This document shows, in pieces, positions 17,737 to 63,707 of a stretch of 64,000 nt of DNA; position 1 is the first letter of the stretch, and every line of letters begins with the position of its first letter. A program made the position numbers and the translations under genes. Below the pieces are notes generated by a model. The model did not search any database. It saw nothing but the letters and a program-made list of their open reading frames with translations, and was not told where the DNA came from. The DNA is from Daucus carota subsp. sativus (taxonomy: Eukaryota > Streptophyta > Magnoliopsida > Apiales > Apiaceae). The stretch spans positions 51,607,214 through 51,671,213 of the forward strand of contig NC_030381.2 in NCBI RefSeq assembly GCF_001625215.2. Direction: 5' to 3'.

Positions 17737-20602
17737 TTATAGCTTCAGCTTAAATCCTTTCGACAGGAAATCATCCCTACAAGATATGAGCAGTCGACAT
17801 TATGGTAAGACAACATAATATATTAGTTATACACATCAGCACAGATACAGAGATTAGCCACAAACCATATTGGCAATAATCACTGCCATGCAACCAACAT
17901 TTATATTAGAAGATTAACAGCTGTTTACTCTATTGAATACTCAAAGTTAGAGTTCCTTTTCTTATTGCTCCAGATTCAGGTGTGCTTGTAGTTATAGAGT
18001 ATACATAAACATTGATTTCAAATATGGCTGTTTAAATTTGGGAAGGAGAGAGGTAGTACTAAATTCTTTACGGACAAGGCTACTTTTGGAACTTCTAGTC
18101 CAGATAACCTTAACTTGCTTCGAAGTCCACTTGTCTAACCATTTTGATCTATGTTCTTTCTTTATCAATTCATCTTGAAACTTCCCACCAAAGTCATCAC
18201 ATATGAAAGGGGCTTACCAACGCATTCAGATAAACAAAGGACCATGGGGCCGACACAAGGAAGCCCTTGTCGTACAATTCAATGCAAGTCATCAAGTCCT
18301 CTAAAGAATTTTATATAGTCAAAATGCAGACCCAATTAGCAAGGTACCCCTTATTTGTACAATTTTGTACTGTTGTCACAGCAGGAAATTAAAAAAAAAA
18401 AAAAAAAGAGTTAGACCAAAGTAAGTTGAAAAAAGACACTGGCAAAGTAAACTTCAAGCATCAGATTAAATCAAGAAACAAGGAAAAACCATTTGGTTGT
18501 TATCAAAGAAGAAAATGAGATAAGTAACTAATTATTAACTAAAGTAACATAACCTGGACGAAAATTTGGTACTGTCTAGTGCTTTTATTCTTAAAGTCCA
18601 ACATGAATGTTACTCCAATTGTGGGTTATGTTGCAGAAAAGGTATGTTCTTCAATTCATATGATAAAAGGTAAGTCTTCAGATTAAATGAGTGGACTAAA
18701 CCATGGTTATTCACTTCACAACTCAACCATTTCCAGGAATTCACATATACTCCAAAATACAAAAAGGTCAAAATGCAGACCATTTAGCAAGGTACTAGCC
18801 CTTATCAGTTAATTTTGTACTGTTGTCACAGCAGAAAAATAAAAATAGAAGTTAGACCAAGGTGAAAAAGACTTTGGCAAAGTACACTTCAAGCATCAGA
18901 CCAAATTATCAAACAACAAAAAACTTTGGGTTGATATCAATTAAAAAATGAGAAACATGACTAATCATTAATTACAGTAACATAGCCTGGACAAAATTTT
19001 GGTACTGTGTTGTGACTTTTATTCCTTAAAGTCCCATATACATGTTACCTAAATTGTGGGTTATGTGGCAAAAGAGATATGTTCTTCTAATAAATTTGAA
19101 TGAAAGGAAAATGCTTAGGTTGAATGAGCAGAATACACAACTCGACCATTTACTGAATATTACATAATTTCCAACTAGACAGATAATTCACAGGATATAT
19201 ATAAGCATGAAAGGGCTTGAAAACGTATATGCAATCTCTTGAAAATTAAAAGGTTCGCAACAAATTTGATGTTATAGATACAATGCAACTATGCAAGTTG
19301 GTAGCCCAAATCATAATCAATTTTAAGAGTTAACTAATTGCTAGATACTTTACATCTTGATATCAAGTAAAATTGACATAAAAATCAAGAACATACAGTC
19401 AAGCATATGTTCACAAACAGATCAAACCTTTTCCTAGTCTTCCGTGAGGTCTCCGGGATTTCTTCTTCGACGTGATGCATCTTCTTAATGGTAACAAGAC
19501 TCTCAGTATAACAAAAAGCCTTGTTAAGCTCCTTGGTGTTATCAATTCGTAAATCCTTAACTGCTTTACTTTTCGGATCGTACAAGAACAACTTAGCATC
19601 ATGATCCTCAACAACAATCTCTCCATTCTTGAAACAATGCAAAACCCTCTGCACCTCTAATGGAATCGGCCCCACAGTATAAATCTTACTCCAAACACCC
19701 GATCTATCATCCAAAACATACACATCCACCAACTTATTCACCTCCGAACCAGGCGAAAACATCATATCCGCCAACTTATCCTTATAATTGGCAAGACACG
19801 CACTCGTCCCACTATTCGATTCACACTTGGGCAAACCCAAGAACCTAAAAACCTCCTTCCTCACATCAAACGTCACACAAACCTCCTTCCCATTAGTCTC
19901 ATCGCCATTCTCAATCGAGAACCCCATCCAATACGGATTCCCCTTCACCGTCACCACGCACCACATATGAGGCATATCATACGGGAAATCCACCTTGATC
20001 TCCTTCCAGCACTCCGCATTACACGAATACACATAAAACCTTGTCAAACAAATCTCATTCGCCGTGACACGAAAAACACAAACCACCTTAAAGTCATCCC
20101 CAACCGAATCATACCCGAATCCCACAAACACCTTCTCCGCGTGCCTCTCCTTATTCGGAAACGGCACCATCTTACACTCCCGTGTAGCTGGATTCCACAC
20201 CACAATCATAAACCCCAAGCTCCTATCACACAAACAGACGAGGCCACTAATGGACCCCACCAGCTCCATCTTAAAGAAGGTCTGGGGGAAATTAAGAGCC
20301 TGTGTGACCGGGCTTTCGATATCGCCGATACGAAAGACGGTCACGACGTCGTCGTAATCATCCGACAGGCTGTGGACGATGAGGGATTCGTTGAGGGGGT
20401 CGGATTGGGTGTGTGCCAGGTGCTGTTTGATGAAATTAGGGGTGGAGATTAAGGCGCGCCAGGGCTTGCAGATGGATTTGAGGAGGGTTAGGGTTTTGAC
20501 GTCGAGGCGGGCGAGGATCTCGGCGAATAAGTCGCGGGGTAGGGTGGGGAGAGAGGAGGGAGGGAGGGAGCGAGTTGGGGTGAGCTTGCTGTTGCTGGGC
20601 AT
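17737..20602 (-). CDS. F-box/FBA protein, two coding exons with tail micro-exon (gene H)
   Basis: Exon 1 is 20602 down to 19428 and exon 2 is 17776 down to 17737, giving 404 residues. F-box at about residues 20-65 (LPRDLFAEILARLDVKTL, CKPWRALI); FBA domain landmarks GLVCLCDRS, WNPATRECKMVPFP and FGYDSVGDDFKVV follow. Exon 1 ends RKTRK plus AG at a GTTTGATC donor; exon 2 starts after TTGTAG and encodes DDFLSKGFKLKL and a stop. The 1.65-kb intron holds a direct duplication (18318-19089). A 3' UTR donor about 40 nt after the stop (near 17695) matches the array genes. It is the most divergent of the eight and lies on the opposite strand. A putative SCF substrate receptor. Without the splice the frame runs to 19385. 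Confidence 0.82.
18318..18660. repeat. Direct duplication in the gene H intron, copy 1
   Basis: Matches 18767-19089 in the same orientation with offset about 449 bp: shared blocks include AAAATGCAGACC, TTTTGTACTGTTGTCACAGC, CTTCAAGCATCAGA and TTGTGGGTTATGT. A 17-19 A-run is present only in copy 1. Confidence 0.75.
18767..19089. repeat. Direct duplication in the gene H intron, copy 2
   Basis: Second copy of the intron duplication; about 80% identical by eye to 18318-18660, with several small indels. Confidence 0.75.
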
Positions 20603-20892
20603 TTTTGGGGAAGTGGGTGAGAGAGAAAAGGGAAAGTGGGCTAGTGAAGAAGATAAAGTCAGTTGAGACCAGGGTTGACTCGATGAAATGGAGTTTCGTT
20701 GAAGGGCCAGATAGTTTTATGTGGAAATTATTGTATACACTATTTTGTTATATTATCATCTCATTGGCCGAAATTATCATAAATTCAAAAGAAAATATGA
20801 TTTTGTTGAATTTTTACAAATAAAATAGTACTACATTTCCCGCTCTTAAAAAAATGTATCTCACTAAAATCCAGCGGTTTAATTGCTTGTTA

Positions 20893-21208
20893 GAGCATCT
20901 CCGAGAATAATATCTAAACTCATTAGCTATAATGCTTATCTAAATGGATTATATAAAATTTTTGCTAACAGTAAAGGTTTTTACTCCAATGGTGTTATCT
21001 TTAATTATTATAAGCTAAAATTATACCTAATTGCATTTTTGGATCAACAAATTTATTGAATGATACTTTGTTATCTATAATTTTTTTGCTAAAGGGTGAT
21101 GGTTGGAGTACAATTTTTTGTACATATTATCTAAAATGGCCAACTAGATGACACATAGGATGACACATAAGATTTTTAGCTAACCGTTCTTAACCCTTGG
21201 AGATGCTC
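20893..21208. mobile_element. PIF/Harbinger-type MITE (GAGCATCTCC ends), copy 2
   Basis: A 316-bp element with ends GAGCATCTCCGAG and CTTGGAGATGCTC, flanked by TTA at 20890-20892 and 21209-21211. It lies just upstream of gene H (minus strand), about 290 bp from its ATG. No coding capacity. Confidence 0.8.
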
Positions 21209-23064: not shown

Positions 23065-26000
23065 ATGTCGTTTCCTCACCAAATGATTGATCAAGTACTT
23101 TGTCGCCTACCCGTCAAGCCTCTCCTTCGTTTTCGATGTGTGTCTAAAGGGTGGTGCTCTCTTATTGATAGCAATGCGTTTGTTAAGAAACATCTTGAAA
23201 CTGCCCTTGAGTGTAATACTGGTTGTGGCCTTATTATTAATGATGATGCTGGAAAGATTTACTTGGCGGATTTTGATTCTTTGGATGACGGGTCTTCGGC
23301 TATTGCTGAAATAAGTGATTCACTTAAGAGTATTTTGTCTGGTGCTGAGTTTTTTGGTGCTGCAAAGGGTTTGGTTTGCGTGGCAAAGGAGGAGATGAAT
23401 GAGATTGTTCTATTTAATCCAGCAACCAGAAAAGCTAGAAAGTTACCTAGTGCCTTACCTGAGTTTCCGCGTTCTTTTCATAGTGTCGAGACTTCCATAT
23501 GTGGCTTTGGATATGATCATGTTAATGATGACTACAAGGTTGTCAAGATTGCTGAGTGTCAGATTCAGTTTCGGGGCTTTATGGTCATAGTCTACAGCCT
23601 CAAATCCAACTCTTGGACACGGGTTAGGAATGTTCCAAGTAATGTTGTTTTTTATTTAAAATGGGGCGTGTTTGCTAGTGGAGCTGTGCATTGGTTGGGA
23701 AGTAAGAATCCGGGACATGGCTTAGAGACCATTGTTGGTTTCGATCTTGGGCTCGAACGGTTCACGGAGATCCCTTTTCCTCCTCTCAATAAAAAATATA
23801 TCACGATGAACTACAGGAGTTTGGGTCCTTTTGGGGAATCCCTCTGTATTCTTGATAACTACCCCGACTTTAGTAGTGATGTGTGGCTGATGAAGGAATA
23901 TGGGGTGGAAAATCCTTGGTACAGAGCATTTAGATTTAAGCAACCCAGCCCCCTCGAATTTTGGGGTCCCAGACCTCTTGCTCTTTCTAAGAGTCGCAAA
24001 AATGTACTCCTAGAGGTGGACCACGCGAAACTTATGTGGTATGACCCGACAAGGAAGACAGTCAAGAAAGTGAGGATTCGTGGGATTCCAAATAGCTTCT
24101 ATACTTATCTATACACTGAGAGTCTTTTACAGCTTACTGAGGATAAGCCACATCAGAAGCCATCACAAGACAAGCAACCAAAGAAAGAACAAAAGAAAAG
24201 GTACTGATTATTATGTCATTTATGTGGGCTGTAGTCTTGCGTTTCTCTGATGTCTATTCTTATGTCATCTTTTTGTACATTGTAGTCATCTATAAATGAT
24301 GTCGGGTTAATCTTTTATGCGAAACATATTGTAGTACGTATTGTGAAGCCTCTACTTGACAATCACTGTAAGCAAACACTATCATGAATTTGTATGAATT
24401 CTAGTATTTGCATGGTTGTGTTGGTTCAGTAATTCAATTAAGATTCTTGTTCTTTGTGCTTAAATTTGGGTACATGTGTTTGCCTGCTTAGGTTTTGATA
24501 GTCCATGATTCATTATAGAGGGTTTTTACTTGTATCTTCTAGGTTATTTTAATACAGTAGTACCTAATATTATGGTGCTGATACAATTTCTTTTAGTTTC
24601 CTTATGCTTTTTACTTTAAAGTTGTGCACATAAAACTGATATATTCAATTACATGGTTGATGGTTTACATTTTGGTACAAATATCTAGGCTGATACACCT
24701 ATGCACTTCAATGTCAGTTATTTATCACATTTAATAATGGATGATTAATAGAGGGTGCTATACATATCGTTGCAGGTACTGTGTACTGGAGCCTATAGTA
24801 GATAAAATCAATCTTGTATAAATATGTATCGCAGTACATTTTAGGTCTTGCATCTTTTTCCTAGCTCATTGTGGGTTTTATTGTGCCCAAGCCCAACTTT
24901 TGATGCATGTGATATCCTGCTCAGTTTTTCATGCTTCATAAATTACTGTGAAGGCTTGTGTCACCTCTGTGCTAGGGGTGGCAATTTCGGATAATGGGTC
25001 GGGTTCGTGTCGGGTTGTCTTACCTGGTCCAGTTTTTGGGTCAACCCGAACCCGACCCGAACCCGAAATGGGTCGAAAATCTCAACCCGAACCCGACCTG
25101 TTCAGTACCCGATTGACCCGAAAATGACCCATTTTGACCCGAAATTTATTAAAAATTATTTGTTTTAATTATATTTAATTATAATATATTAAAAATATAT
25201 TAATAATAATTTAATAAGATTATATGTGACAAAAATATTCTTAATATTATATAAATATATCATAAATATATGTAATTTTAAAATATAAATATATATAATT
25301 AATATAATATATTTATATATAAATATTTCGGGTCGGGTTCGGGTACACTGGGTCAACCCGAACCCGACCCGAGTTTTTCGGGTAAAAAATTACCCGACCC
25401 GAACCCGACCCGAAATGTAAAAACCCCGACCCTAATTCGTATTTTTTCGAGTCAGGTTCGTGTCGGGTTTCGGGTCGTGTCTGATTTTGCCACCCCTACT
25501 CTGTGCCATGGCATAAATCATGATAAGAGTTCTTTCTAGTTTCATTGTTCATTTTAGTTACTTTGGAGTTTGGAGTTGCAATGTGAAACTTAAGAATCAT
25601 TCACACGGTGTGGCTTGCAGTGTACTATTAATTCATATGAAATGACTGTCTCCACTGTAATGTTAAAAGGTCACTTGTCCGTATACTTATTATTATTGAG
25701 GTATGTAATTTATATAAGCTCCCTTAGCTAAATTTCCTCCCTGACTCCAAATTTTAGATGCAAATCATGAAATAACGTCTTAGTTACTCTGCACCTCAAG
25801 CAAGAAAAGAAGTTAGCATGTTATTTCATATATTGCCTGTTTATTTATATTCTGTATGTGGCTATAAAGAAATTTTGTGCTCTGGAGAAGACATACTCAT
25901 TTGGGTGTGAATCTAATATAATGAATATAGTAGTTTGTGTTTAGAGCTTATTAGTCACTATTTTTTCTTATTGTCGTTTTGCTTGCTGAGTTGAGATATC

Positions 26001-26115
26001 CCTTGTTTAATTCAGTTTATAGATATTTCATCCTCGGGGCTAATATCTGCCAACTATTGACCCTATCTCTTGTAGGGATGTTTTTCTTTCCAGAGGATTC
26101 AATTTAAAGCTATAA
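23065..26115 (+). CDS. F-box/FBA protein with tail micro-exon (gene A)
   Basis: Exons 23065-24200 and 26076-26115, 391 residues. F-box at residues 3-45 (QMIDQVLCRLPVKPLLRFRC, then SKGWCSLIDS); FBA region with GLVCVAKEEMNEIVLFNPATR (residue about 106), CGFGYDHVNDDYKVVKIA, YSLKSNSWTRV, VHWLG, FDLGLERFTEIPFP and LMWYDPTRKTVKKV. A Lys/Gln linker ends exon 1; exon 2 gives DVFLSRGFNLKL then TAA. The 1875-nt intron holds the hAT MITE at 24973. A 3' UTR intron (26157-26538) begins 41 nt after the stop. Reading through the first donor stops after Tyr. A putative SCF substrate receptor; the target is unknown. Confidence 0.88.
24973..25498. mobile_element. hAT-type MITE with GGGTCGGGTT-like arrays, in the gene A intron
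   Basis: A 526-bp element, ends TAGGGGTGGCAA and TTTGCCACCCCTA, flanked by a perfect 8-bp repeat CTCTGTGC (24965-24972, 25499-25506). Both ends carry many ACCCGAACCCGACC-type units in opposite orientation around an AT-rich core (about 25140-25320). It is spliced out with the first intron of gene A. The perfect duplication suggests a fairly recent insertion. Confidence 0.9.
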
Positions 26116-28519: not shown

Positions 28520-28527
28520 GTGGCAAG

Positions 28528-29211: not shown

Positions 29212-31522
29212 ATGGTGCTTCCCTGTGAACTTATTGATGAGGTCCTTTGTCGCCTTCCTGTCAAGTATCTTCTTCGTTTTCGATGCGTGTCTAAAGGATG
29301 GTGCTCTCTGATTGATAGCAATGCATTTGTTAAAAAACATCTTAAAAGAGCCCTTGAGTGCAATGCTGGTGGGGGAAGTATTTTTATCAATAGTGGTGGT
29401 GATAAATTTTACCTGGCGGATCTTGAGTCTTTGGATGATGATGAGGCTGTTGCTGTCGAAGTAAAGGGCTCACTCAAGACTCGGCTCTCGGGTGCTGTTG
29501 TTGTGGGTGCTGCTAATGGTTTGGTTTGTGTGTCCAAAAATATGATGAATCAGATTTTGGTGATCAATCCATCAACCAGAAGGTGGAGAAAGATAGCCAG
29601 TGCGCCTGCTGAGTTTCCTCGTTGTTCCTGTTCAACTGAGATTTCCCTTTGTGGCTTTGGATATGATGATGTTAATGATGATTACAAGGTTGTCAAGATT
29701 GCAGACTGTCATGATCGTGGCATGATGGTCATTGTCTACAGCCTTAAGACCAATTCTTGGAAATGGATTCAGAATGTTCCTAGGAACGTTGATTTCTGTG
29801 GATATTGGGGAATGTTTGCAGGCGGAGCTTTGCATTGGTTAGCAACCAAGGATCCAAATGCCTCTGAGATTGTTGTTGGTTTTGATCTCGCACTTGAACA
29901 GTTCAAAGAGATCCCTTATCTTGTTGTTGAAACACCTACTGTCCCTGCCACGGGTGTGGTTTCTGATGGAGGATCCCTTTGGGTTCTGGAATACTACCCC
30001 GACAGTCATATGGATATGTGGATGATGAATAACCATTCGGGGATGGAAAATGAAAATCTTTGGTTCAAAGCACTTTCAGTGGAGCAACACTTTGTACTTG
30101 GATCTTTTAGCTTGCTGAAACCTGTTGCTTTTTCCAAGAGTGGGGAGAGTGTGCTCCTAGAGGTACACATCTCAGTGGTGGACAGAGCAGAACTTGTGTG
30201 GTATGACCTCAAAAGCAAGACAGTCAAGAATGTAAAAATTCAAGGGATTCCACATAACTTTGAATCATATGCGTACACTGAGAGTCTCGTACAGCTCTCC
30301 AAGAACAAGTTGCTGCAGAGGCCATCACTAGACAAGCCAGAGAACAAACATCAGGAAAACAGGTAAACAGTATTCTACCCTTTGTATGGTTTGCAGTTGT
30401 CTTTGTTTGGCTTTAATCACATTGTTAGCTTTTGGTCTTAGTCTTCTATAAATCACATAGCTCGGAATAGAAGGACATCAATCTTGTCTGCTGAACAAAT
30501 TGTAGTGGCATAGTTGGTATTGTGAATCCTATATTTGATAAGCATAACAACAAACACGGTCATTTATAAATAGGGAGCATTGTAAATTTTGAGTGTTTGT
30601 GTGAGTTTGGTGGTTTAGTGTTGTGGTTCAGACTTTTTACACTGTGCCTAGCTTCGGATATACCTGTATTTTTTTGCTTATTCTTCATGTTTGGTTATTT
30701 ATCCAAATTCAATCGAAATGAGATCTTTAGATTTTAGAGGCTTATCTGATTTGTCAACTTTTCTAGACTATATTGCCTCTGTGTCTTGTAAATCATGGAG
30801 CATAAGACAATTACTTCGAGCATTCCTAGTTTAGTTATTTACTTTTAAGTTGCACATATGAAACCTGGACAATTATTTACATGGTATGATATGATATGAA
30901 TTTATATATATATGACTGGCTTTAGGCTCTTTACTGTAATGGTACAAAGGTCTCATGTCTGTATACCTCATTTTTCTAATTTCATTAAGGTATGCAAGTA
31001 GTTATGGAACTGATTTACCTCTTTTCTGTTGCTAATTATATCAAAATTATGATCTCTATACTAGTAAATTTCTTTGAGCTCTTACAATCATTAATCATTA
31101 GTCTACACTCCACATGCGTTTTCTGCTCTGTCTTACAATCAGATAATAATATTTTAGGTAATCTTGTGGGTACTTCGGGAGCTACAGACTTAATTATGCT
31201 TGCTTTCTATATTCAAAAATTTAGGATACAACTACTCTGCACTTCAAGCAAAAATAGAAGTTAATATATCCTTTTGTACAGGTTGCCTAGTTTATGGTTT
31301 GCTATTTATGACAGTAAGTATTGGATGTGGGTTGTTAAAAATTGTTTGATATAGAGAAGTCATAGTTATATACTCATCTGTGTATTGCTAATGCCAAAGA
31401 TTGTTTTTGGTTTGATCAATTGTTCTCTGGACTAATGGTATGTATTTTGGCCCGTTGTTGTTTATTGACTTATCTCTTGCAGGGATGATGTTATCTCCAA
31501 AGGATTTAAACTGAGCCTATAA
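29212..31522 (+). CDS. F-box/FBA protein with tail micro-exon (gene B)
   Basis: Exons 29212-30362 and 31483-31522, 396 residues. F-box at residues 3-45 (ELIDEVLCRLPVKYLLRFRC); FBA region with AANGLVCVSKNMMNQILVINP (residue about 100), CGFGYDDVNDDYKVVKIA, YSLKTNSWKWIQ, LHWLAT, GFDLALEQFKEIP and LVWYDLKSKTVKNV. The tail linker is Gln/Lys/Asn-rich; exon 2 gives DDVISKGFKLSL then TAA. Here the donor AGGTAA itself makes a stop if unspliced. A 3' UTR intron (31564-32027) begins 41 nt after the stop. It groups with genes F and G by sequence and upstream block. A putative SCF substrate receptor. Confidence 0.88.
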
Positions 31523-33823: not shown

Positions 33824-35334
33824 ATGTCGCTTCCCCAGGATTTAATTGATCTAGTACTATTTCGCCTCCCCGTGAAGCCTCTCCTTCGTTGTCGATGTGT
33901 GTGTAAAGGATGGTGCTCTCTTATCGATAGCAATGCTTTCGTTAAGAAGCATCATAAAAGAATGATTGAGTGCAGTACTCGTGGTGTCATTATCAGTGGT
34001 TTTGATGGCAAGTTTTACTTGACGGATTTCGAGTCGTTGGACGGAGGTGGTGATGAGGCTGTTGCTGTACCGATGAATGGTCCGGTCAAGAGTATTGTTT
34101 CGGGTGCTGAGTTTTTTGGTGCTGCAAATGGATTAGTGTGTTTGTCGAAGAATCAGATGAATGAGCTTTTTATATTGAATCCGTCGACGAGGAAGGCTAG
34201 GAAGATACCTAGTGCACCAGCTTATTTTCCGCGTTCTTTTGATAGCTCCGAGATTGGGCTCTGTGGTTTTGGGTATGATCATGTTAATGATGATTACAAG
34301 ATTGTCAAGATCGGGGAGTGTCATGTTAAGTTTCGTGGCATATTGGTCATAGTTTACAGCCTCAAAACAAATTCGTGGAAACGGATTCAGAATGTTCCTA
34401 GTAAAAACACTCAGTTTTTAGGAGATCGGGGCTTATTTGCAAATGGAGCTCTGCATTGGTTTACGATCAGTGGTATAATGGATTTTGCAAACATTGTTAG
34501 TTATGATCTTGGGCTTGAAATGTTTAAAGAGATCCCTTTTCCTCCTCACGGGACATTTGGCAGGAGTTTGGTTCCTGTTGAAGAATCCTTTGGGATACTA
34601 TATAACTACCCCAGTCGTGTGGATGTGTGGCTGATGAATAACTCCGGTGAAGGAAATCTTTGGTCTAAAGTGCTTTCGCTGAAGCAGGCTGGTCCCCTCG
34701 GGCCCTTTAGCTTTGTTAGACCTGTTGCTTTTTCCAAGTGTCACAAAAATGTACTTCTGGAGGTGGACAGAGCAAAACTTGTGTGGTACGACATTAAAAG
34801 GAAGAGAGTCAAGAATGTTAGGATTCATGGAATTCCAAACAGTTTTGAGTCTTATCTATTCATTGAGAGTCTCTTACAGATCACCAATGATAAGGAGGAT
34901 AAGCTGCTGCAGAAGCCATCTCAAGACAATCAGGGAAAGAAAGAGCAAAAGAAAAGGTACTAAATGTTCTGTCATTTGTGTGGTGTATGCTTCAATTACA
35001 TATTAGTTTTTTATGTCACGTTGGCTGGGACATTCTTAATGTGTGCTAGGCATGATGTATTAGGTATCGTATATCCTATAATAAATGAGCATTATGAAGA
35101 AAGACATTTATGTGTAGATATAGTAATATGGGAGTAATTACATGCCTGCACGGGTTTGGCAGTTCTCCACTGCAACTGCCTAAAACATTTTCTTGCTCTT
35201 TCTTGGATTTCATGTACAGTGTTATGTATTGTCATATTGATTCATCTGACTCTGTTCTAATGGCAAGTTTAAGTGTTGTCCTCGTCTCTTGCAGGGATGG
35301 TTTCCTTTCCAAGGGATTTAAACTGAGGCTGTAA
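33824..35334 (+). CDS. F-box/FBA protein with tail micro-exon (gene C)
   Basis: Exons 33824-34956 and 35295-35334, 390 residues. F-box at residues 3-45 (DLIDLVLFRLPVKPLLRCRC, CKGWCSLIDS); FBA region with AANGLVCLSKNQMNELFILNP (residue about 103), CGFGYDHVNDDYKIVKIG, YSLKTNSWKRIQNVPS, LHWF, YDLGLEMFKEIPFP and LVWYDIKRKRVKNV. The linker is KEQKK; exon 2 gives DGFLSKGFKLRL then TAA, the closest to the tail consensus. Its intron is the shortest first intron in the array (338 nt). A 3' UTR intron (35374-36022) starts 39 nt after the stop and holds a decayed Stowaway-like MITE. A putative SCF substrate receptor. Confidence 0.88.
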
Positions 35335-38093: not shown

Positions 38094-40518
38094 ATGGCGC
38101 TTATTCAAGATTTGATCGGTGAAGTTCTGTGTCGTGTACCCGTTAAGCCGCTTCTTCGCTTTAGATGCGTGTCTAAAGATTGGTGCTCGCTTATTGATAG
38201 CAATGTGTTTGCTAAGAAACATATTAGAACTGCTCTTGAGTTTGGTACTGGTGGTGGTCTTATTGTTAATGATGAGGCTGGAAGGTGTTACGTGGTGGAT
38301 TCCGAGGGTGTTGATGTTGGGAGTGATGAAGCTGTTGCGGTAGGAATAAAGGATCCGCTGATGTCTCTTATCCATGGTGCTGAAGTTCTTGGGGCTGCAA
38401 ATGGATTATGTTGTGTGGCAAAAAGTGAGATGAGTAATATTTTACTATTTAATCCAATGACCAGGAAGGGTAGGGAGATATTAGTTGTCCCTGCTCCCAT
38501 TTGTGGCTTTGGATATGATCCTGTTAATGATGACTACAAGGTTGTCAAGATTGCAGAAGGTAAGACGCAGTTTTTTGTCTTTGTTTACAGCCTCAAAACC
38601 AATTCTTGGAAGCGGGTTCTGAATGTTCCAAGTAAGGTTAGTTTCCTTTCGAAATGGGGTGTGTTTGCTGGTGGAGCTCTGTATTGGTTGGCGAGTAAGA
38701 ATCCAGGGAAGGGCTTAGATACCATAGTTAGTTTTGATCTCGGACTTGAACAGTTCAAGGGGGTTCCTCTTCCCCCCGCTGATAATAAAATTGTCAACAC
38801 CAATAGTAGGTTTATGGTTCCTGTTGGAGAATTGCTTTGTATCTTTGATAGCTATCCCAATCATAGTATTGACGTGTGGCTGATGAATAAAAACGGGTCA
38901 GAAAATCCATGGTACAAAGCATTCACTGTGAAGCAACCCAGACGGCACGGTTCTGAGTTTCTTAGGCCTCTTGCTTTTTCCAAGAGTCAGACAGTTTTAC
39001 TTCTGCAGGTGGGCAACACAAAACTTATGTGGTATGACCTTGAAAAGAAGACGTTCAAGAATGTTGGGATTCGTGGTATTCGGATGAACTTTTATGCTTA
39101 CCTATACAATGAGAGTCTCTTACAGCTCGCCGAGGATAAGCCACCCCAGAAGCCATTGCAAGACAAGACAATTCAGAAGCCATCTCAAGACGAGCAACAG
39201 AAGAAACAGCAGAAGAAAAGGTACAGAATGTTTTTGTGACACATGAAACTATTTCCTTAATTTCCCTATTATTTCGGATTTTGATTTCCACAGTTTTGGT
39301 TCTACATATATTCACTTCAAAGGCACTTACAAATGAAGTTGGCTGGAACAATAATATCGAGTGCTTGACATAATGTAGTAGGTGCTCTGAAGCCTATACT
39401 TGATAAGCAGGCTAAACAAAACCAATCTTGTACAAGTATATACTGGAGTACATTTTAAATGTTTCCATAGATTTGGTGGTTCAGTACTGTGGCTAGGTTT
39501 TCTTTTTCCATCTCAATTTGGGTTTATGGTACCTTACTGTAGATGTATGTGATTTTCTAAACAATTTTCCTTGTTCAATAAAATATAGAGTAGGTTGTTG
39601 TTTGTCACCTTAGTCTAGTGGTATGGATCATGATACAATTTCTTTCTAGTGAAGCTGTACACATGAAACTTGAATAATCATTATGCTGTCATGCGACTGA
39701 CTTTACTGTAATGTTACAAATATCACCTGTCTTTATGCTACAATTTGCTTTGTTCTTTGAGTTATACAAGTTATGGAAGTGATTAACATCTTTCTTGCTT
39801 ACCTTTATTAGAATTATGCTCTCTTCACTATAAATATTTATGGTGTTTATATTCATTTATTTTTTAGTCCGGGTTGTGTGTCAAGGTGATCTATCTTACA
39901 AGTGAGACAATCAGATGATAATGTTTTTGGTATTGAGAGAGCTCCTATCTCAGTTAGACTCTTTCTCTTTCCCTGCCTCTGGCCCCAAATTCTTAGATGT
40001 CTTCTTACTCTGCACCTGTAGCCATTAGAAGAAAACATTTTTTTTTATGTCATCTGGTTTATTCATTTATTATTTTGCTGTTTTTAAGAGTTCTTTTGTT
40101 GACTGATATTAAATAAAATTATGAAAACTCTGAATTATATATATATATATATATATAAAGAGAGAGTTAAGTAACTACATCTACAGCAAAAGATTATAAT
40201 GAGACTGAGCTTCAATCAATTGGAAAAATAAAAAAATTGCTGCCTACCTCTACATTTCTACTGCAGTAATTATAATTACAGTAGTTTCAATTGCGATAGC
40301 ATGATCATGACCTATTGTGGATGATATTTGACAAGAACTTACCCATCACTTGGAATGCTATCTTCTTTTTGTCGATTTCTTGCTGTTTTGATATAAATTC
40401 TGTTAAAATTTTGCTCCCAGGACTAATGCTTTTTTGTTGCTAGTATATTGACGAATTTTTTGACCTTGTCTCTTGCAGGGATGGTTTTCTTTCCAAGGGA
40501 TTCAATTTGAGGCTCTAA
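38094..40518 (+). CDS. F-box/FBA protein with tail micro-exon (gene D)
   Basis: Exons 38094-39220 and 40479-40518, 388 residues. F-box at residues 3-45 (DLIGEVLCRVPVKPLLRFRC, SKDWCSLIDS); FBA region with AANGLCCVAKSEMSNILLFNP (residue about 101), CGFGYDPVNDDYKVVKIA, YSLKTNSWKRV, LYWLAS, FDLGLEQFKGVPLP and LMWYDLEKKTFKNV. It lacks about 10 residues before CGFGYD that its neighbours have. The linker holds an extra DKxxQKPxQD unit, a short internal duplication. Exon 2 gives DGFLSKGFNLRL then TAA. A 3' UTR intron (40530-40725) starts 11 nt after the stop. A leader intron precedes the ATG (37785-38030). A putative SCF substrate receptor. Confidence 0.88.
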
Positions 40519-43977: not shown

Positions 43978-43987
43978 TCACTGTCAC

Positions 43988-44359: not shown

Positions 44360-46421
44360 ATGAGGATTTCTCACGACTTACTAGAAGAAATACTCTGTCG
44401 CCTTCCAGTCAAGCATCTTCTTCGTTGTCGATGTGTTGCTAAAGGCTGGTGCTCTCTTATTGATAGCAATGCATTTGTTAAAAAGCATCTCAAAAATACC
44501 CTTGACTGCAATGCTAGTGGTGTGCATGTTATCAATGGGTTTGATGGAAGGTTTTGGGTGGTGGAATCTGATGATGGTTCTACTTCTGTTGTTGAAATAG
44601 ATGATCCGATCAAGATGCTTCTTAGCGATTCTGAATATTGTATTGCTGCAAATGCCTTACTTTGTGTGTTTAAATCTCAGATGAATGATATATTTCTGTT
44701 TAATCCATCAACCAGGAAGGTTAGGAAGTTACCAAGTGCCCCACCTGAGTTTCCGCGTGGTTTTAATGGTACGGAGGATTGTGTTTGTGGCTTTGGATAT
44801 GATCATGTTAATGATGATTATAAGGTTGTGAAGATTGTACAGAGTTTTGTTCAATCTGGTGGCACTATGGTCGTAGTTTACAGCCTGAAAACCAATTCTT
44901 GGAAACAAATTCAGAATGTTCCTAGTAAATATTTTTTAACAATATGGGGCATATTTGGTAATGGAGCTCTTTATTGGTTTTTGGTCAAGGATTTAGCGTA
45001 TGGCTTTGAAACCATTGTTGGTTTTGATCTTGGGCTTGAACAGTTCAAGGAGGTCCCTTTTCCTCCTGTCAATAAAAACTATATCATGGAAAATAAGAGG
45101 GGTTTGTTTACACCACCTGCTGGAGAATCCCTTTGTTTACTTGATACCTACTCCGACCTTAGTGTGGATGTCTGGCTGATGAATAACTATGGGGAGAAAA
45201 ATACTTGGTACAAAGCATTTTCAGTGAAGCAATTGTGCCCACTCGCTTTCGGAATTCTGAGGCCCCTTGCTTTTTCCAAGAGTCACAAAGATGTACTTTT
45301 AGAGTTGGACTGCCAAAAACTTGTCTGGTATAACATTGAAAGGAAGACAGTCAAAAGTGTCAGGCTTCCAAGGATTCTGGTGAAGTTTGATTCACATTTC
45401 TGCACTGAGAGTCTGTTACAGCTCACTGAGGATAAGTCGCTTCAGAGGCCATCACCAGACAAGCAGAAGAAACAGCAAAAGAAAAGGTAAAAATTTCGTT
45501 AGTTGTGTGGCTAGTTGAGTTTTCATCTGGCATATATCACTGAGTTATGATTTCGAACATCTTTGTCATGTGTAACTAATGTTGGCTGGAAAAGTAATGT
45601 TGTATGCTAAACCCTTTGTAGTAGGTGCTGTATAGCCTCTACTCTATTGTTAGTATAAACAAAAACAATCAAGTATGAATTATTAATTACTATGGCGGCT
45701 TGTGTAGTTTGTCCTCTTTTCAATTCGAGACCATATAAATTTGTTGCTAGTTTCCTATTTTTTAGTTGCCTTGGGGTTATGCACATAAAACTAGGATAAT
45801 CATATGCACGGTATTGTGTAAAATTAAAATATATATGACTCTCCTATTGCTATATAACAAAGATTACATGTCAGGACTTTGGTTGGTTTCTCCATTGAGC
45901 TGCGTAAGGAGTTATGGAAGTGATAAGTTTCTTTTGTATCGTTGTTCTTCGTCAAAATGATGTCCACTGTACTTCTGAATCTTACATATATAGTTCTCTA
46001 AGTCATATATTTGTAGTTTGGAAGTATTTCTGCTCTATCTTCCAATTCAGATTATCAGATGATAGTGGTCTAGGTACTTAAAAAAACTTCAACTTTAGTT
46101 AAAAAAATTCCCTGCCTTGAACAGTTAAACTACTTGAATGCAACGATGACTTCCTCACTCTGTATCTCAAGCAAGAAGACAATTTAACATTTAATATGAT
46201 TGCATACCTGTTATTATAAAGAGAGTGTTTAGAACTTGCATTTAACATGGTCTTCTCTTATTGTTGTTTTGCTTACTAGCTGATACACCTTTTGTTTAAT
46301 TGACGTTGATTGATAATGCATGTTGGGCTAAGTTTCCTCTACTGTTATAGTTATGCCGTTTATTGACCTTATCTCCTGTAGGGATGATTATCTATCCCGA
46401 GGGTTCAATCTGAGGCTATAA
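44360..46421 (+). CDS. F-box/FBA protein with tail micro-exon (gene E)
   Basis: Exons 44360-45486 and 46382-46421, 388 residues. F-box at residues 3-45 (DLLEEILCRLPVKHLLRCRC, AKGWCSLIDS); FBA region with AANALLCVFKSQMNDIFLFNP (residue about 97), CGFGYDHVNDDYKVVKIV, YSLKTNSWKQIQNVPS, LYWF, GFDLGLEQFKEVPFP and LVWYNIERKTVKSV. In the otherwise fixed NGL position it has NAL. Exon 2 gives DDYLSRGFNLRL then TAA. The donor AGGTAA makes a stop if unspliced. A 3' UTR intron (46464-46568) starts 42 nt after the stop. A putative SCF substrate receptor. Confidence 0.88.
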
Positions 46422-53962: not shown

Positions 53963-56279
53963 ATGGAACCTCCTACTGATTTGTTGGATGAGATACTCTG
54001 CCGCCTCCCAGTCAAGTATCTTCTTCGGTGCAGATGTGTGTCGAAAGGATGGTGCTCCCTAATTGATAGCACCCCCTTTGTTAAGAAGCATCTCAACAAG
54101 GCCCTTGAGTGCAATGCTGGTGGTCTTATTATTAATGAAGGCGGGAAGTTTTACTTGGCTGAGGATTTTAACTCTGATTTGGATGGTAGTGATGATAATG
54201 TTGATGTGGTCGCGGCAGAGATAACTCGTCCACTCAAGACTCGTGTCTCTGGTGCTAATTTTGTGGGTTCTGCTAATGGTTTAGTTTGTGTGTCCAAGAA
54301 TAAGATGAATGAGTTCTTTATATTTAATCCAGCAACCAGGAAGTCGAGAAAAATACCCAGTGCTCCACGTGAGTTTCCACTTTCGTTTCATATGACGGAG
54401 ACTTCCTTGTGTGGATTTGGATATGATCAAGTAAATGATGACTATAAAGTTGTGAAGATTGCTGAGTGTTATCTTCAGTTTCGCGGCATAATGGCCTTTG
54501 TCTACAGTCTCAAAACAGACTCTTGGAAACGGATTCAGAATGTTCCTAGTAACACTCGGTTCACAGGAAATTGGGGAATGTTTGGAAATGGAGCTCTGCA
54601 CTGGTTGGCTATCAAGAATCCAGCAAACTGCATAGAAATTGTTGTTGGTTTTGATCTCGGGCTAGAACAGTTCAAGGAGGTCCCTTTTCCTGTTATTGAG
54701 GGCCCTTTTGTCAATTTTAATACCAGGAGTCTGGTATCGGATGGAAGTTCCCTTTGTGTTCTTGATATGTACCCTAATTCTCGTATAGATGTGTGGGTGA
54801 TGATGAATAATTCCGGGGAGGAGAACCTTTGGTCCAAAGCACTTTCTGTGGATAAACACGGGATGCCTGGGTTTTCAAGGTTTGTTAGACCTGTCCATAT
54901 TTCATGGAGTAGCCAGAGTGTACTCTTAGAGATAGACAGCTCAAGACTTGTGTGGTATGACCTTGAAAGGAAAATGGTCAAGAATGTTAAGGTTCGTGGG
55001 ATCACAAACCAGTTTGATTCACATATGTATACTCAAAGTCTCATACAGCTCGATGAGGACAATCAGCTGCAGAAGCCTTCACATGACAAGCCACCGAAGG
55101 AACAACAAAAGAGAAGGTAAAAAATGTATTGCCGTTTTTTGGCTTGTAGTCTTGTTTATTTTGCATCTGGTGTGTTGTTAGCTTTTGGTCATTTATAAGT
55201 CGCATCGACTAGGGCATCATTTTTGTGTGGTGTATATTGCATATGTATTGTTAAACTTAAGCCTATACTTGATATAACAAACAATTATGTACAGATATGA
55301 TTTGTGGTATATTTTAAGTTTTGCATGGGTTTGGTGGCTCACTATTGTGGTTAAGACTTAGGACTTCTTTTTCTATCTCATTTAAGGTTTTCCTTTTAAT
55401 TAACTTCAATTCCATGTGATATCTTGATCGGTTATTTATGTTCTGTAATCACTGAGATTGTGAAGTTTGTTTCCTCGGACTCCATTTCCTCTGTGTCCTG
55501 ACGTCCTGTCTCAGAGCATGAGATGATTCTTCGTGGTTTCCCTAAATTTTGGTTACTTTGATGTGTACACTTGAAACTGGAATAATCATTTACATAATAG
55601 AGTGAACTACTAAGCCATATGACTGTCTTTGCTGTAGTGGTTGTACAAAGTTTACATGATCTGTATATTGCACTTTACTTTAGGCATTAAGGTCTGCAAA
55701 GAGTTAGGTGAGTGATAATTGTCTTTAGTGTTGCCTACTTCTATCAGAATCACCTTCAGAGAATCAGATTACTGTCAAATTTCCTGTAGTACTTAAAATT
55801 GTTTTCTTTAATCTGCAAGTGTTGCCAGCTTTCACCAGTCAAGGAAATCAGATGACAGTATTGTGGGTACTTCGAAAGCTCCAACCTTCCTTTAACTTTC
55901 AGCAATTAGAATATAACATTTCCTATTTTATAATTTGATCGGTTTGCTATTTCTGGATTGCATGTGTTTTGTGTGGCATATGAGAAATTTGGTATTATAG
56001 TCCTTTGTTAAGCCAGTGTTATATATATTGGCGTGTATCTCTAATTATAAAGGGAGGAATCAGTGTCAAAAAAGAGTAATCAGTGTCTAGTACTCACTAA
56101 TCTGCATGCTATTTTCTTATTCCCAATTTGCTTACTGACTCGGGATATCTTTTGCTTGATTGTGGTTGACGGATAACTCATTCTGGAACCAATTTTCCTT
56201 TTTAAAATCTTTAGCAAGTGTTAACCTTATCTCTTGCAGGGATGATTTCCTCTCCAGGGGATTCAAACTGAGTATCTGA
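53963..56279 (+). CDS. F-box/FBA protein with tail micro-exon (gene F)
   Basis: Exons 53963-55116 and 56240-56279, 397 residues. F-box at residues 3-45 (DLLDEILCRLPVKYLLRCRC, SKGWCSLIDS); FBA region with SANGLVCVSKNKMNEFFIFNP (residue about 102), CGFGYDQVNDDYKVVKIA, YSLKTDSWKRIQNVPS, LHWLAI, GFDLGLEQFKEVPFP and LVWYDLERKMVKNV. Exon 2 gives DDFLSRGFKLSI then TGA; the last residue is Ile rather than Leu and the stop differs from its neighbours. A 3' UTR intron (56287-56539) starts only 7 nt after the stop. It is the closest relative of the broken gene at 61503. A putative SCF substrate receptor. Confidence 0.88.
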
Positions 56280-57977: not shown

Positions 57978-59231
57978 ATGGCCTTGAAGCTTCCCGCAGG
58001 TTTTAAGTTTTGCCCCACTGACAAACAGCTCTTGGAGAATTACTTGAAACCCAAGATTCAGGGCACCCTTTCTTGGGATTTCATCCAGGAGAAGGACATC
58101 TACGGTCCCAACGCCACTCCATGGGAGATTTTCGATGACTCGTCCACTCAATGGGTAACCTCTGGTCATCAAAAATCTGTTTATGTGTTTACTCGTTTGA
58201 CAAGGATGGCGGATAAGGACTCATCGGGTGCGGGTAATGAAGGACACTACGTCAGGAGAGCAGGCTGTGGTACGTGGCATGTTGAAACAGGTCGTAAGAC
58301 CATCATGGACGATGGAAATAATCCTATTGGGGAGAGGAGGATGTTGGTTTTTCAGATTAATGATGGATTGAACAATGGAGTTACAGAGTACTATTGGAAT
58401 ATGCACGAGTATCTTTTGAAGGGGAATGATGATTATGTGGTTTGTCGGATTACTCTTGATATGTCAAAAACGGCCAAGGTTATAAGCACCCAAGAGGTTT
58501 CTGCAAGACGTGGCACGACTAAGTCTAAAGCAAGAAAGAAATCTACTACTACGCGTACTACTGTTGATGAGAGGGAGAAAGCAGTGTTGGTTGATAGTTT
58601 CTGCGGTTCAGGAAAGGAGGTGGCGTCGAATATTGATGGTTCTGGTCCTTCTGGATGCAGTTATGAGAATGAGAGATGTCATGGAGAGAGTAATGAGGCG
58701 ATCTATCAGAATCTGCTGGCCCCCATGAATACCCTTTGTCACGATGGCATGCCACTATATGATTATGTAGGATGGATTCCTACTGTTGAAGAACAAGAGG
58801 GATTACAAGTACTCAACGATGATCAGAGACTCAACAATGAAGAAGCTGCCCAACTAGCTGTAATACCTACGGATGAGGGTTCTCAAAACCTGGGGACAGT
58901 ATTATCAGATTTCAACGGCGGGTCTAATGATGAATTATATTTCGACTTGGATGATATGTTTGGTGCTGATTTCTGGTCAGACATTGACAATGTGCTGATG
59001 ATGGAGCCCCCACTGCCCAACAGTGACGCATCTTTGGACTTGGTGGGTTTTCTTGATGCTGCTGGTTCTTGGTCAGATAAAATATTGGAGGAAGCGGGGC
59101 AAGTCAACAACAATGTGCAGGAGCAACAGCAGCAATGGCAACAGCCTACGCAGAACATGAGTTGCCTGTTAGGGAAAAGGGAATCATTTGAAGCTCAAGA
59201 AGCAGCACCTACTAAGAGGCCTCGCATCTGA
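57978..59231 (+). CDS. Divergent NAC-domain transcription factor, intronless (NAC 2)
   Basis: A 417-residue inverted paralogue of NAC 1, about 85-90% identical by eye. The NAC domain spans about residues 4-155 (LPAGFKFCPTDKQLLENYL, DIYGPNATPWEIF, TWHVETGRKTI, GERRMLVFQI, TEYYWNMHEYLLKG, YVVCRITL). The tail has YFDLDDMFGADFWSDI, a Gln-rich run and the basic end TKRPRI, a possible nuclear signal. Differences from NAC 1 include loss of a few residues after FQIND and extra ones near the middle of the tail, all in frame, so both genes look functional. The micro-exon of a vanished F-box gene follows 1 kb downstream. Confidence 0.82.
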   Translation: MALKLPAGFKFCPTDKQLLENYLKPKIQGTLSWDFIQEKDIYGPNATPWEIFDDSSTQWVTSGHQKSVYVFTRLTRMADKDSSGAGNEGHYVRRAGCGTWHVETGRKTIMDDGNNPIGERRMLVFQINDGLNNGVTEYYWNMHEYLLKGNDDYVVCRITLDMSKTAKVISTQEVSARRGTTKSKARKKSTTTRTTVDEREKAVLVDSFCGSGKEVASNIDGSGPSGCSYENERCHGESNEAIYQNLLAPMNTLCHDGMPLYDYVGWIPTVEEQEGLQVLNDDQRLNNEEAAQLAVIPTDEGSQNLGTVLSDFNGGSNDELYFDLDDMFGADFWSDIDNVLMMEPPLPNSDASLDLVGFLDAAGSWSDKILEEAGQVNNNVQEQQQQWQQPTQNMSCLLGKRESFEAQEAAPTKRPRI

Positions 59232-59892
59232 TTTTGACTTGATGTTCTGATTTTATTTTTGGGCTTTCTTGTATAATGACGAAGGTGCTTATTAATCTTG
59301 CTGTTTAAGTTCCATGAATACTGATGAACACTGTCACATTGTGTATATGTGATTTCTTTCTTTGTTTATCATGTAATTTGTCATCTTTTCTGGGCTACAT
59401 TACCATTGTCATCTACATGGTACCATGAACTATTAATGTGTATGACTGTTAAGACTTTTTCCATTACTGATTAATATCTCTTGGTTTACTTGCGTTCTCA
59501 GAATGACTGATTTATAGCTTGTCAGCATTACGTTCTCCTTACTGTTGAATACTTTTATATAGTTGTTTAAATCAGAATGACTTAGTTTCCCTTGGTGTTG
59601 TCTGCTCTATCTTACAAGTCAGATGATTCTCTTGCGGGTACTTTGGATGTTCCACCCTTTGTTAAAACTGTCTTCTGACATCTACAATTATAAATGTGAT
59701 AATGGCTTACTTCTTCAGTACTTAAAGCAAGCTGAGAAGTTGTGTTAGTATTTTCTTTTACTTTTATTATGGACGTCGTCTGGCTTATGGGTTTCTGTTT
59801 CTGCAATTTCATGTGTTGAGTTGAGACATCTTTTTCTTGACTCTGGTTGATGGACATTCTTTCTGCAGCTAATGTTCTTACTCATATACTTA

Positions 59893-60230
59893 GGTTGTGT
59901 TCACTTGGCATGAATGGAATGGAGGGAGAATAGAATGAATTTTGTACTCTAAAATGGTGTTGCTTAAAGAAAATGTATATATTTTTCATTCCTTCAATCA
60001 TTCCAATCATACTATTTTAACTATAATTCTAACTCACATGTTTTGGAAGGAATGCTCATTCCATCTCTACATCATGTTATCATGTTTCTTTACCTACTTT
60101 CTCACAAGAAATTTAACTACATTCATATTTTGTCCCTATTATTTCATACTTTCTTTTTTTCTCCTTAAAACTTTTATATAATTTTTCATTCCATTCTCCC
60201 CTCATTCCTTTCGATGAAGTGAACACAGCC
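59893..60230. mobile_element. PIF/Harbinger-type MITE (GGTTGTGTTCACTT ends)
   Basis: A 338-bp element with inverted ends GGTTGTGTTCACTT and AAGTGAACACAGCC, flanked by TTA at 59890-59892 and 60231-60233. The next inner parts (GGAATGGAGGGAGAA and TTCTCCCCTCATTCC) also pair. No coding capacity. It lies about 30 bp before the relic F-box micro-exon, in former intron DNA. Confidence 0.8.
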
Positions 60231-60259
60231 TTAGTAAGTGTTGATTTCATCTCTTGCGG

Positions 60260-60340
60260 GGATGATTACCTTTCCAGGGGATTCAAACTTAGGCTGTTGC
60301 CACTTGAAGGATTAAAATATGAAACAGTAAATAACCAGGT
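60260..60340 (+). pseudogene. Relic micro-exon of a lost F-box gene
   Basis: 60261-60296 would encode DDYLSRGFKLRL, the 12-residue tail of the array F-box genes, but the acceptor TTGCAG is TTGCGG and the stop (TAA/TAG) is TTG. The following 40 nt and the GTAGAAAC donor match the 3' UTR part of the broken gene at 61503 (GAAGGATTAAAATATG). No first exon precedes it; NAC 2 stands where that exon would be expected. It is therefore the remnant of a ninth array-type gene. Confidence 0.8.
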
Positions 60341-60399
60341 AGAAACTTCTCCAAATCTAACTCGGTTGCGAGGAGGTCTTCCAGAAACCATGTTTTTTT

Positions 60400-61502: not shown

Positions 61503-63707
61503 TTGAAGATGGAACTTCCTTCCGAATTGTTGGATGAGATACTCTACCGCCTTCCAGTCAAGCATCTTCTGCGGTGTAGATGTGTGTCTAAAGAATGGTG
61601 CTCCCTAATCGATAGCACCCCATTTGCTAAAAAACATCTCAAAAGGGCCCTTGAGGGCAATGAAGACGGTCTCATTATAAATGAACGCGGAAAGTTTTAC
61701 TTGGCAGAGGATTTTAAGCCTAATTTGGATGGTGGTGATAGTCATGAAGTTGTTGCTGTAGACATAAACGATCCCCTCAAGACTCTTATCTCTGGTGCTG
61801 ATTTTGTTGGTTCTGCCACGTGCCAATGGTCTAGTTTGTGTGTCCAAGAATATGATGAATGAGTTTTTTGTATTCAATCCATCAACCAGGAAGTCAAGAA
61901 AGATACCTAGTGCCCCTGCTGAATTTCCTCATTCTTTTCAGAGGACTGAGACTTCCCTTTGTGGCTTTGGATATGATTCTGTGAATGACGATTACAAGAT
62001 TGTCAAGATTGCTGAATGTTATTTTCAGTTTCATGGCAAAATGGTCATTGTCTACAGCCTCAAAACCAATTCTTGGAAACATATTTTGAATGTTCCAGCT
62101 CATACCACGCGTTTCTTTGGCGATTGGGGAATGTCTGCAAGTGGAGCTTTGCATTGGTTGGCCATCGATAATCCAATTAATGGCTCCCACATTATTGTTG
62201 GTTTTGATCTTGGGCTTGAACAGTTTAAAAAGCTCCCTGCTCCTGCTCTTGAGGGCCCTATTAATACCAGGTGTGTGGTTTCTGTTGGAAGTTCCCTTTG
62301 GATTCTTGATGAGTACCCTGATTCTCATAGAGATATGTGGGTAATGCTGAATAGTTCAGGGGGGGAAATTTCTTGGTCCAAAATACTCTCTAAACGCAGT
62401 GCACTTACATATTTAAGGTCTGTTAGACCTGTTTATATTTCAATGAGTGACCCGGGTATACTCTTCGAGGTGGACAGCTCACAACTTGTGTGGTATGACC
62501 TTGAAAGGAAAATGTTGAAAAATGTGAGGATTCGCGGGCCCACGGATAAGTTTGATCACATTGTACACTCAGAGTCTCATACAGCTCAACAAGGATAGTC
62601 CACCACTGAAGCCCTCTCAAAAAAAGCCACATAAGGAACATCAAAAGAGAAGGTAGAAAAATATTTCCGTTTGTTTGGTTTGTAGTTGTATTTCTCTGGC
62701 ATTCATTTTCATTTGACCTTTTGGTTTTTTAAGTTTTAATAAATGACATTGGCTTGTACATTAATCTTTTTTTTTGGGGTGATTTGTTAATGTATTTTGA
62801 AACCTATATTTGATTTCTTGACTAGTTTTTTGTGTAAACTGGGGCTTGCATAGCTTTTCTTCTTTTCTGGGCTATATTACCCATATGTCCTGTCACAGAA
62901 TGGGAGTTTGTTGGGTTTGCCTAATTGTTAATGACTCTTAAGCTGTACACTTACATCTGGAATAATCATTTACACGATACGGTGAACTTTAATGCGTAAT
63001 AGTGTTCATACAATTCGGATCAAAGTGTCGAAGGAGTTACTGAACTGATTGATATCTTTTGGTTTGCCAACCTATATAGCTTTTTTCATTAGAATTACCT
63101 TGTTTTTACTGTTGAATATTTTTCTAGTTCTTAACATCTCAACTTAATTTGTTCTTGTACTTGATTTTTAGTGATTAAGTCGAAAAACCCGAATTGCCTA
63201 TGTCTAAATCTAATGGTAAAAATCCCCAATACTGTTGATTCTTTTTCCAAAACTTAACAGAGTGATATATATAGTGATTTGAGTACTTTAAATGAGTCCC
63301 CATAGAGATCGGGTAGCTTGGTGAGATATTTTGACGATAATGGTGACCACTTTGATATAAAAACCCAAATTATAAATGCGATAGTGGCTCACTTAATCTG
63401 TGCTTTATGCAAGCAAAGAAGTTAATATATCCTTTTTCATGGGTTGTATGGCTTATAGTGTGCGGTTTACATATGATATACTAGTGGCGCGTATATATTA
63501 TTGTAAATAGAGGAATTAGTGTCCAGAAATCGCAATGCTCTTTTGTTAATGCCATTTCACTTGCTGAATTAGGATATCTTTTGCTTGACTCTGGTTCATG
63601 GACATTTCTTTCTGGAGCAAATATCCTTACTAATATCTTTACCATCTGTTGATTTCATTTCTTGCAGCGATGATTTCCTTTCCAAGGGATTCAAACTGAG
63701 GCTATAG
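61503..63707 (+). pseudogene. Broken F-box/FBA gene (gene G)
   Basis: Same architecture as gene F: exon 1 61503-62652, exon 2 63668-63707 (tail DDFLSKGFKLRL then TAG), 3' UTR intron 63748-63894. The F-box (ELLDEILYRLPVKHLLRCRC, SKEWCSLIDS) and FBA landmarks are all present, but exon 1 has two frameshifts relative to gene F. One is a 7-bp insertion near 61818-61824 (TGCCACGTGCC against GC in F). The other is a net loss of 2 bp near 62547-62560, just before the SLIQL region. Splice sites survive, although the base after the acceptor is C instead of G (Arg becomes Ser at the join). An intact FBA domain cannot be made from this allele. The lesions look young because the rest is well conserved. 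Confidence 0.85.

Follow-up and report, generated by a model that had tools for sequence, protein, structure and literature searches.

What does a C-terminal tail of 12 residues, encoded by an exon of its own, do for a family of F-box proteins? The question is raised by a stretch of 64,000 nucleotides of the carrot genome (Daucus carota subsp. sativus, NC_030381.2, positions 51,607,214 to 51,671,213; the whole stretch is called the window hereafter), which holds an array of F-box/FBA genes ending in such a tail. The tail is almost certainly real, selected and spliced, judging from the sequence. Our best explanation overall, to which we give a probability of about one half, is that it is a tethered docking motif forming the C-terminus of proteins of the type of Arabidopsis CPR1.

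A separate last exon encodes the tail

We labelled the F-box genes of the window after the positions of their tail exons (g17m, on the minus strand, and g26 to g63; Table 1). A preliminary description of this DNA had listed eight tail exons, and all eight proved correct in length, acceptor, phase and translation. Each measures 40 nt and follows an acceptor reading ...TTGCAG, ...TTGTAG or ...CTGTAG; one base finishes the last codon of exon 1, and 12 codons and a stop follow. The consensus of the encoded tail is D-D-F-L-S-K/R-G-F-K/N-L-x-L. The join had been described as a phase-2 AG/G after a Lys/Gln-rich linker, which is true for the seven genes with an open exon 1, where the donor AG/GT stands in phase 2 straight after a K/Q/E-rich linker. 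The introns of these seven genes measure 338-1875 nt, matching the 0.34-1.9 kb spacing given before, and the proteins have 388-404 residues. The term micro-exon, in its usual internal sense, does not fit, as these 40 nt make up the coding portion of a last exon that must run on as 3′-untranslated region (3′UTR).

Scanning both strands of the window with a matrix of 14 tails (six from elsewhere and the eight of the window, which score high by construction), we found the eight tails at 39.8-48.4, a ninth, decayed copy at 45.3, and everything else at or below 21.5. A chance origin of the tail matches is excluded. The eight copies listed earlier thus stand, but the list was incomplete, the ninth having been overlooked. 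The tail had also been ascribed to every F-box gene of the array; it is present in all those listed, but the F-box gene of another lineage at 7171-8319 (minus strand) has none in the 7.2 kb up to the window edge.

The PF00646 F-box model scored above its cut-off in g26, g31, g35, g40, g46, g56 and g17m, and FBA_1 or FBA_3 did so in g17m and in five of the six open array genes (not g35). No Pfam model covered the tail of spliced g56. Exon 1 of g63 gave two overlapping matches in different frames, and a three-frame reading agrees with two frameshifts in this assembly, because of which g63 is probably a dead gene.

Selection acts on the tail peptide

For the analysis of selection, we compared 19 genes in 171 pairs: g17m, 17 further genes whose exon 1 is open, and L009, in which the F-box lies out of frame (L-numbers denote loci outside the window). 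The preliminary description had proposed comparing nonsynonymous and synonymous change (pN and pS), and by this measure pN/pS is lowest in the tail (0.223), intermediate in the F-box (0.324) and highest in the propeller region that makes up the rest of the domain (0.654). In seven sister pairs, the ratio is 0.221 for the tail versus 0.601 for the domain. Only 4 of the 274 twelve-codon windows after the F-box are as low as the tail in pN/pS, and 7 in pN, which bears out the earlier claim that the tail surpasses most of the FBA domain in conservation. By amino-acid identity, 26 of 361 whole-protein windows equal or beat the tail, its own region included; mean identity is 0.73 in the tail and 0.44 in the propeller region. 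G7, F8 and L10 are invariant in all 19 genes, D1 and L4 are kept in 18, and the last residue is L, I or M throughout.

Because pN/pS of the tail is low while its synonymous sites diverge freely (pS 0.687 versus 0.529 in the propeller region), the peptide rather than the RNA is constrained, by purifying selection at the amino-acid level.

The tail would sit on a flexible tether

Using AlphaFold2 with the window's own eight proteins, we modelled the exon-1 product of g56. The model (mean predicted local distance difference test score, pLDDT, 79.6; predicted template-modelling score, pTM, 0.82) shows four N-terminal helices and then propeller strands, the final one at residues 352-357, and residues 367-385 fall below a pLDDT of 50. 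Foldseek matched it to kelch-domain (KLHL, KEAP1, KBTBD4), designed and other propellers with TM-scores of about 0.3-0.6. A sequence search of solved structures with exon 1 returned one weak unrelated match (E 0.4). From the strand order of the model we infer that exon 1 encodes a closed ring of six blades, which would leave the tail on a flexible tether. The net charge over the last 25 residues of the linker varies from 0 to +12.

A docking motif on a disordered tether fits these data best, because the last strand of the modelled propeller ends at 357 and residues 367-385 have a pLDDT below 50. We propose that the tail is the spliced-on C-terminus of CPR1-type F-box/FBA proteins and would act as a tethered short linear motif, consisting of a capped helical turn (DDFLSKG) and then an amphipathic strand (F-K-L-x-L). 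It would dock onto a fixed partner of these SCF (SKP1-cullin-F-box) ligases or return to the ligase itself, leaving variable substrates, e.g. immune receptors of the NLR family, to be read by the fast-evolving propeller; a free carboxyl end would not be needed. CPR1 controls the amounts of plant immune receptors, with substrate recognition credited to the FBA domain. The separate exon of the tail, and a conservation exceeding that of nearly the whole domain, speak for a second functional contact.

The tail recurs in related genes of the carrot genome

We searched the genome (441 Mb, 11 contigs, abbreviated C1, C6 and so on) with exon 1 of g56 and obtained 110 matches. Among the 28 best-matching places, down to E 6e-65 and g56 included, a phase-2 tail exon lies downstream in 19, seven in the window and 12 outside, and is missing in nine (L014, L016, L017, L020, L021, L022, L024, L028 and C3:63840417). 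Tails beyond a second exon 1 were assigned to the nearer gene, so those behind L021 and L022 were credited to L027 and L023. Upon removal of the broken or truncated L009, g63, L014, L017, L024 and L028, the tail is present in 17 of 22 places. L020 and L022 keep a good donor, and their own tail was not found downstream. A matrix of the eight window tails alone detected the tail downstream of 12 of the 20 other loci at scores of 36.5-51.1; the one antisense match listed scored 19.8.

Six of the genes form a group on contig 6, with introns of 128-175 nt, and five of their six tails end in GFKLVL. The donor used for L027 (CAAAT/GTAAGA) is a choice among five candidates. In L018 (C6:39451130), L019 (C6:39439142) and L027 (C6:36771333), no in-frame ATG precedes the F-box, because of which an upstream first exon is likely.

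Of 94 F-box/FBA places outside the window (fragments merged), 27 were inspected singly and 67 through two whole-genome DNA patterns alone. The first pattern gave 48 matches with up to two mismatches versus 43 in a reversed control, and the second gave 20 versus 11 with up to one mismatch; the looser matches are mostly chance. With zero or one mismatch, the first pattern had 20 matches, comprising 17 at F-box genes or their remains, the decayed window copy, a transposon copy, and C4:41685176, which has nothing F-box-like in the 401 nt read. By these two patterns, tail exons outside the related genes described above are few.

A joined pseudogene looks like a fossil of the splice

The F-box pseudogene L017 (C1:51069518-51070621, minus strand) lacks the intron: its linker AAGAAACAACAGCCGAGAAGAAG passes directly into GGATGATTTTCT and a degraded tail. 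This joined copy was compared with five tail exons, and for L012, L013 and g17m none of 5000 shuffles was as good. We read L017 as a cDNA-derived or intron-loss copy, and thus as a fossil of the splice; because it joins exon 1 to a degraded tail without an intron, the tail looks spliced on. No poly-A tract was seen in the stretch examined.

Arabidopsis CPR1 probably carries the tail

The sequence used here for the Arabidopsis protein CPR1 (CPR30, At4g12560) has 413 residues, and its C-terminus RRDDFLSKGFKLVL presumably ends in this tail. The last ten residues of this sequence equal those of the contig-6 gene L018. When it was compared with 39 proteins, in one direction, its 25 best matches (27-34% identity) were the 25 rows of the tail clade described below, seven of which are tail-less, and g17m ranked 29th. 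Arabidopsis CPR1 probably has the tail as well. The sequence used matches G61 and I247 as given in PMC4508093.

Like the carrot family, CPR1 consists of an F-box and an FBA/kelch propeller and has a single intron (PMC4508093). Unlike CPR1, the carrot family has expanded into arrays, and its introns range from 128 nt to 1.9 kb. In cpr1-j2928, the single intron is altered at its final base and CPR1 is mis-spliced; the allele behaves as a recessive loss-of-function allele, as do a missense allele and a T-DNA allele (PMC4508093). If this intron is homologous to that of the carrot genes, the tail or the transcript end would be essential, and the literature suggests that CPR1 needs the join to its last exon to function. 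The tail is perhaps lost in this known splice mutant, and the existing Arabidopsis alleles make the proposed contact testable. In the portions available, the CPR1 papers discuss the F-box and FBA domains, not the tail. A description of the tail was not found in open-access full texts (figures, supplements and subscription papers lying outside the search), where SKGFKL led to one unrelated leech-peptide paper and FLSKGF to none; this agrees with the preliminary description, which knew of no function.

Weighing the explanations

The array does consist of tandem duplicates, and the introns of g63 and L009 are 93% alike, so one may ask whether young copies alone explain the likeness of the tails. 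This has practically no probability, since pS of the tail reaches about 0.69 across all pairs and about 0.9 when the array is set against the contig-6 genes, and the likeness of g17m is confined to about 50-75 nt around the exon. Alternatively, the exon could be kept at the RNA level, for splicing, 3′ end formation or escape from nonsense-mediated decay, and not for its peptide. Every tail gene has its intron in phase 2, and in several of them translation continuing past the donor would run into a stop within a few codons, which such constraint would explain, but the synonymous sites of the tail diverge at least as fast as those of the propeller region, making this account very improbable. On synonymous divergence we rejected both. 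A signal read from a free C-terminus (a C-degron, or of the peroxisomal or PDZ type) fares hardly better, although the tail stands at the very end of the protein and its last residue is L, I or M in every gene compared: the construct pCPR1:CPR1-eYFP, genomic CPR1 without its stop, fully rescued cpr1-4 aba1-8, cpr1-4 being suspected by the authors to be a weaker allele (PMC6265325). If CPR1 bears the tail, its end need not be free.

A targeting signal (nuclear, membrane or export) made of the basic linker and the hydrophobic tail would suit the K/Q-rich linkers and the finding of CPR30-mCherry at the plasma membrane with a viral movement protein (PMC11630581). We consider it unlikely, as the linker charge ranges widely while the tail stays fixed, and the invariant G7 and F8 would be left unexplained. 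Folding of the tail in cis onto its own propeller or F-box, stabilising the protein or gating substrate access, has more in its favour. A linker of about 20-30 residues would reach, and a short helix-strand motif would suit docking to an edge. In RBBP5 (6km7), an unrelated propeller protein, a distal segment presumably folds back onto the protein; its title in the Foldseek list speaks of an internal interaction, and it is a precedent for such a clasp only. Nevertheless, the exon-1 model already looks complete as a propeller, and a variable propeller facing an unvarying tail is unexpected for a co-evolving contact, and we hold the clasp possible but doubtful. Docking in trans we rate slightly short of an even chance. 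Of what the preliminary description had put forward, its observation is confirmed and its interpretation partly supported: docking stands, as the tethered motif fits best. A free-C-terminus signal is disfavoured by the rescue by CPR1-eYFP, provided that CPR1 bears the tail.

Several points weigh against the tethered docking motif of CPR1-type proteins. Its partner is putative, and the splicing of the tail is read from genomic sequence. A tail in AtCPR1 and the homology of the only intron of that gene are both presumed. Among the 22 relatives whose exon 1 is open, five lack a tail of their own in about 8 kb downstream, so some copies have lost it. The joined copy L017 is only weakly like g56 (6 of 5000 shuffles as good) and L018 (204 of 5000), and the mis-splicing in cpr1-j2928 could also destroy the transcript. 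The CPR1 sequence used here has a tryptophan at 286, one off from PMC5615928, where translation ends after 286 residues. It also conflicts with 'Gly182' of PMC6265325 if this is a residue; nucleotide 182, in codon 61, would fit.

g17m belongs to another lineage

In the exon-1 tree, g17m groups with five tail-less relatives (support 99/95), and a 25-row clade (100/99) holds the other 18 tail genes and excludes it. The tail had been called specific to the array family, which is not supported, given g17m, coming from another F-box/FBA lineage, and the transposon copies described below. An AG/GT donor stands at the linker end in three of the five relatives; the tail motif was absent from the 2.1-2.8 kb read downstream of all five. 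The wider lineage has the same domain order as the tail family, and two of its loci, L034 (C1:5763906) and L036 (C1:5739967), possibly have a different short last exon (DASDAMMS... and NASNAMMS..., with 80% likeness between them over 65 nt). This hints at spliced tails peculiar to each lineage among FBA genes at large.

The tail-exon DNA of g17m is on average 79.6% identical to the array and 67.1% to the contig-6 group, versus 65.0% between these two, and it lay nearer to the array in 98.8% of 5000 site bootstraps. The tail pS is 0.68 for g17m and the array, 0.99 for g17m and contig 6, and 0.91 for the array and contig 6. Exon 1 of g17m is equidistant (0.729 to the array, 0.725 to contig 6), and its likeness to other genes is limited to about 50-75 nt around the tail exon. 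Because the exon is nearer to the array while exon 1 is equidistant, we somewhat favour transfer of the tail after the split of array and contig-6 genes; retention from an older ancestor is rated just under even odds. Forty nucleotides are little, and slow change in the array tails could mimic transfer.

We also considered an array-like intron upstream of the g17m tail. In gapped comparisons of the g17m intron, 0, 5 and 9 of 1000 shuffles were as good for L010, g63 and L009, but the contig-6 gene L025 scored as well (3 of 1000). With an ungapped array matrix, g17m was matched by 3.4% of 9429 decoys over 32 nt and by 62% away from the acceptor. As the matrix did not single out g17m either, the candidate was dropped.

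A transposon has captured the tail exon

A DNA element of about 0.9-1.1 kb with inverted ends of about 115 bp carries the tail exon, about 60 nt of the intron and part of the 3′UTR (four copies, Table 1). Three insertion sites show, by eye, perfect 8-bp target duplications. We take a duplication of this length to indicate hAT, and the element would be a hAT-like non-autonomous transposon. The two copies on C9 probably represent a single insertion, as their flanks agree to 99.6% over 2 kb. At C4:44054102 lies a related element without the exon part. The C7 copy retains acceptor, frame and stop, and the other three read GFKPRL. The captured piece is closest to the decayed window copy (84%), then to L009 and g63 (82%). 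A more speculative reading, to which considerable doubt attaches, would make the tail exon a portable 'plug-in' in phase 2: a self-contained docking motif copied by transposons and tandem recombination and captured by the g17m lineage, which would thereby gain the partner of CPR1-type ligases. If the exon is indeed mobile, a linear motif would have spread as a ready-to-splice unit.

Table 1. Tail exons and first exons in the window (window positions) and transposon copies of the tail exon (contig positions)
Feature	Position	Strand	Sequence	Remarks
g17m tail exon	17737..17776	-	DDFLSKGFKLKL	acceptor ATCTTGTAG; matrix score 48.4
g17m exon 1	19428..20602	-		F-box + FBA, lineage other than array; donor GAAAAG/GTTTGA, intron 1651 nt
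g26 exon 1	23065..24200	+		donor GAAAAG/GTACTG
g26 tail exon	26076..26115	+	DVFLSRGFNLKL	
g31 exon 1	29212..30362	+		donor AAACAG/GTAAAC
g31 tail exon	31483..31522	+	DDVISKGFKLSL	
g35 exon 1	33824..34956	+		donor GAAAAG/GTACTA, intron 338 nt
g35 tail exon	35295..35334	+	DGFLSKGFKLRL	
g40 exon 1	38094..39220	+		donor GAAAAG/GTACAG
g40 tail exon	40479..40518	+	DGFLSKGFNLRL	
g46 exon 1	44360..45486	+		donor GAAAAG/GTAAAA
g46 tail exon	46382..46421	+	DDYLSRGFNLRL	
g56 exon 1	53963..55116	+		donor GAGAAG/GTAAAA; structure model made
g56 tail exon	56240..56279	+	DDFLSRGFKLSI	
ninth tail-exon copy, decayed, without exon 1	60260..60299	+		acceptor AG changed to GG, stop lost
g63 exon 1, aligned part	61509..62577	+		two frameshifts, one inside and one near the end
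g63 tail exon	63668..63707	+	DDFLSKGFKLRL	tail intact
element copy	C9:37959985-37960856			
element copy	C9:36067485-36068356			
element copy	C7:23658368-23659276			
element copy	C6:28221700-28222839			

Neighbouring features of the window

In the decayed ninth copy at 60260, the stop is replaced by TTG and the acceptor reads GG; it sits behind a short repeat-like insertion, and the search with exon 1 of g56 found no exon-1 match between g56 and this copy. By eye, an insertion resembling a miniature inverted-repeat transposable element lies at 59890-60230 within the relic, with inverted ends GGTTGTGTTCACTT and AAGTGAACACAGCC. Two closely similar genes on opposite strands lie within the F-box array, at 41811-43088 (minus), a NAC gene by Pfam, and at 57978-59231 (plus), similar to it by eye and preceding the decayed tail copy. 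Adjoining the array at 8835-14074 (plus), the open reading frames show, by eye, a retroelement of the long interspersed nuclear element type, with endonuclease, reverse transcriptase and RNase H.

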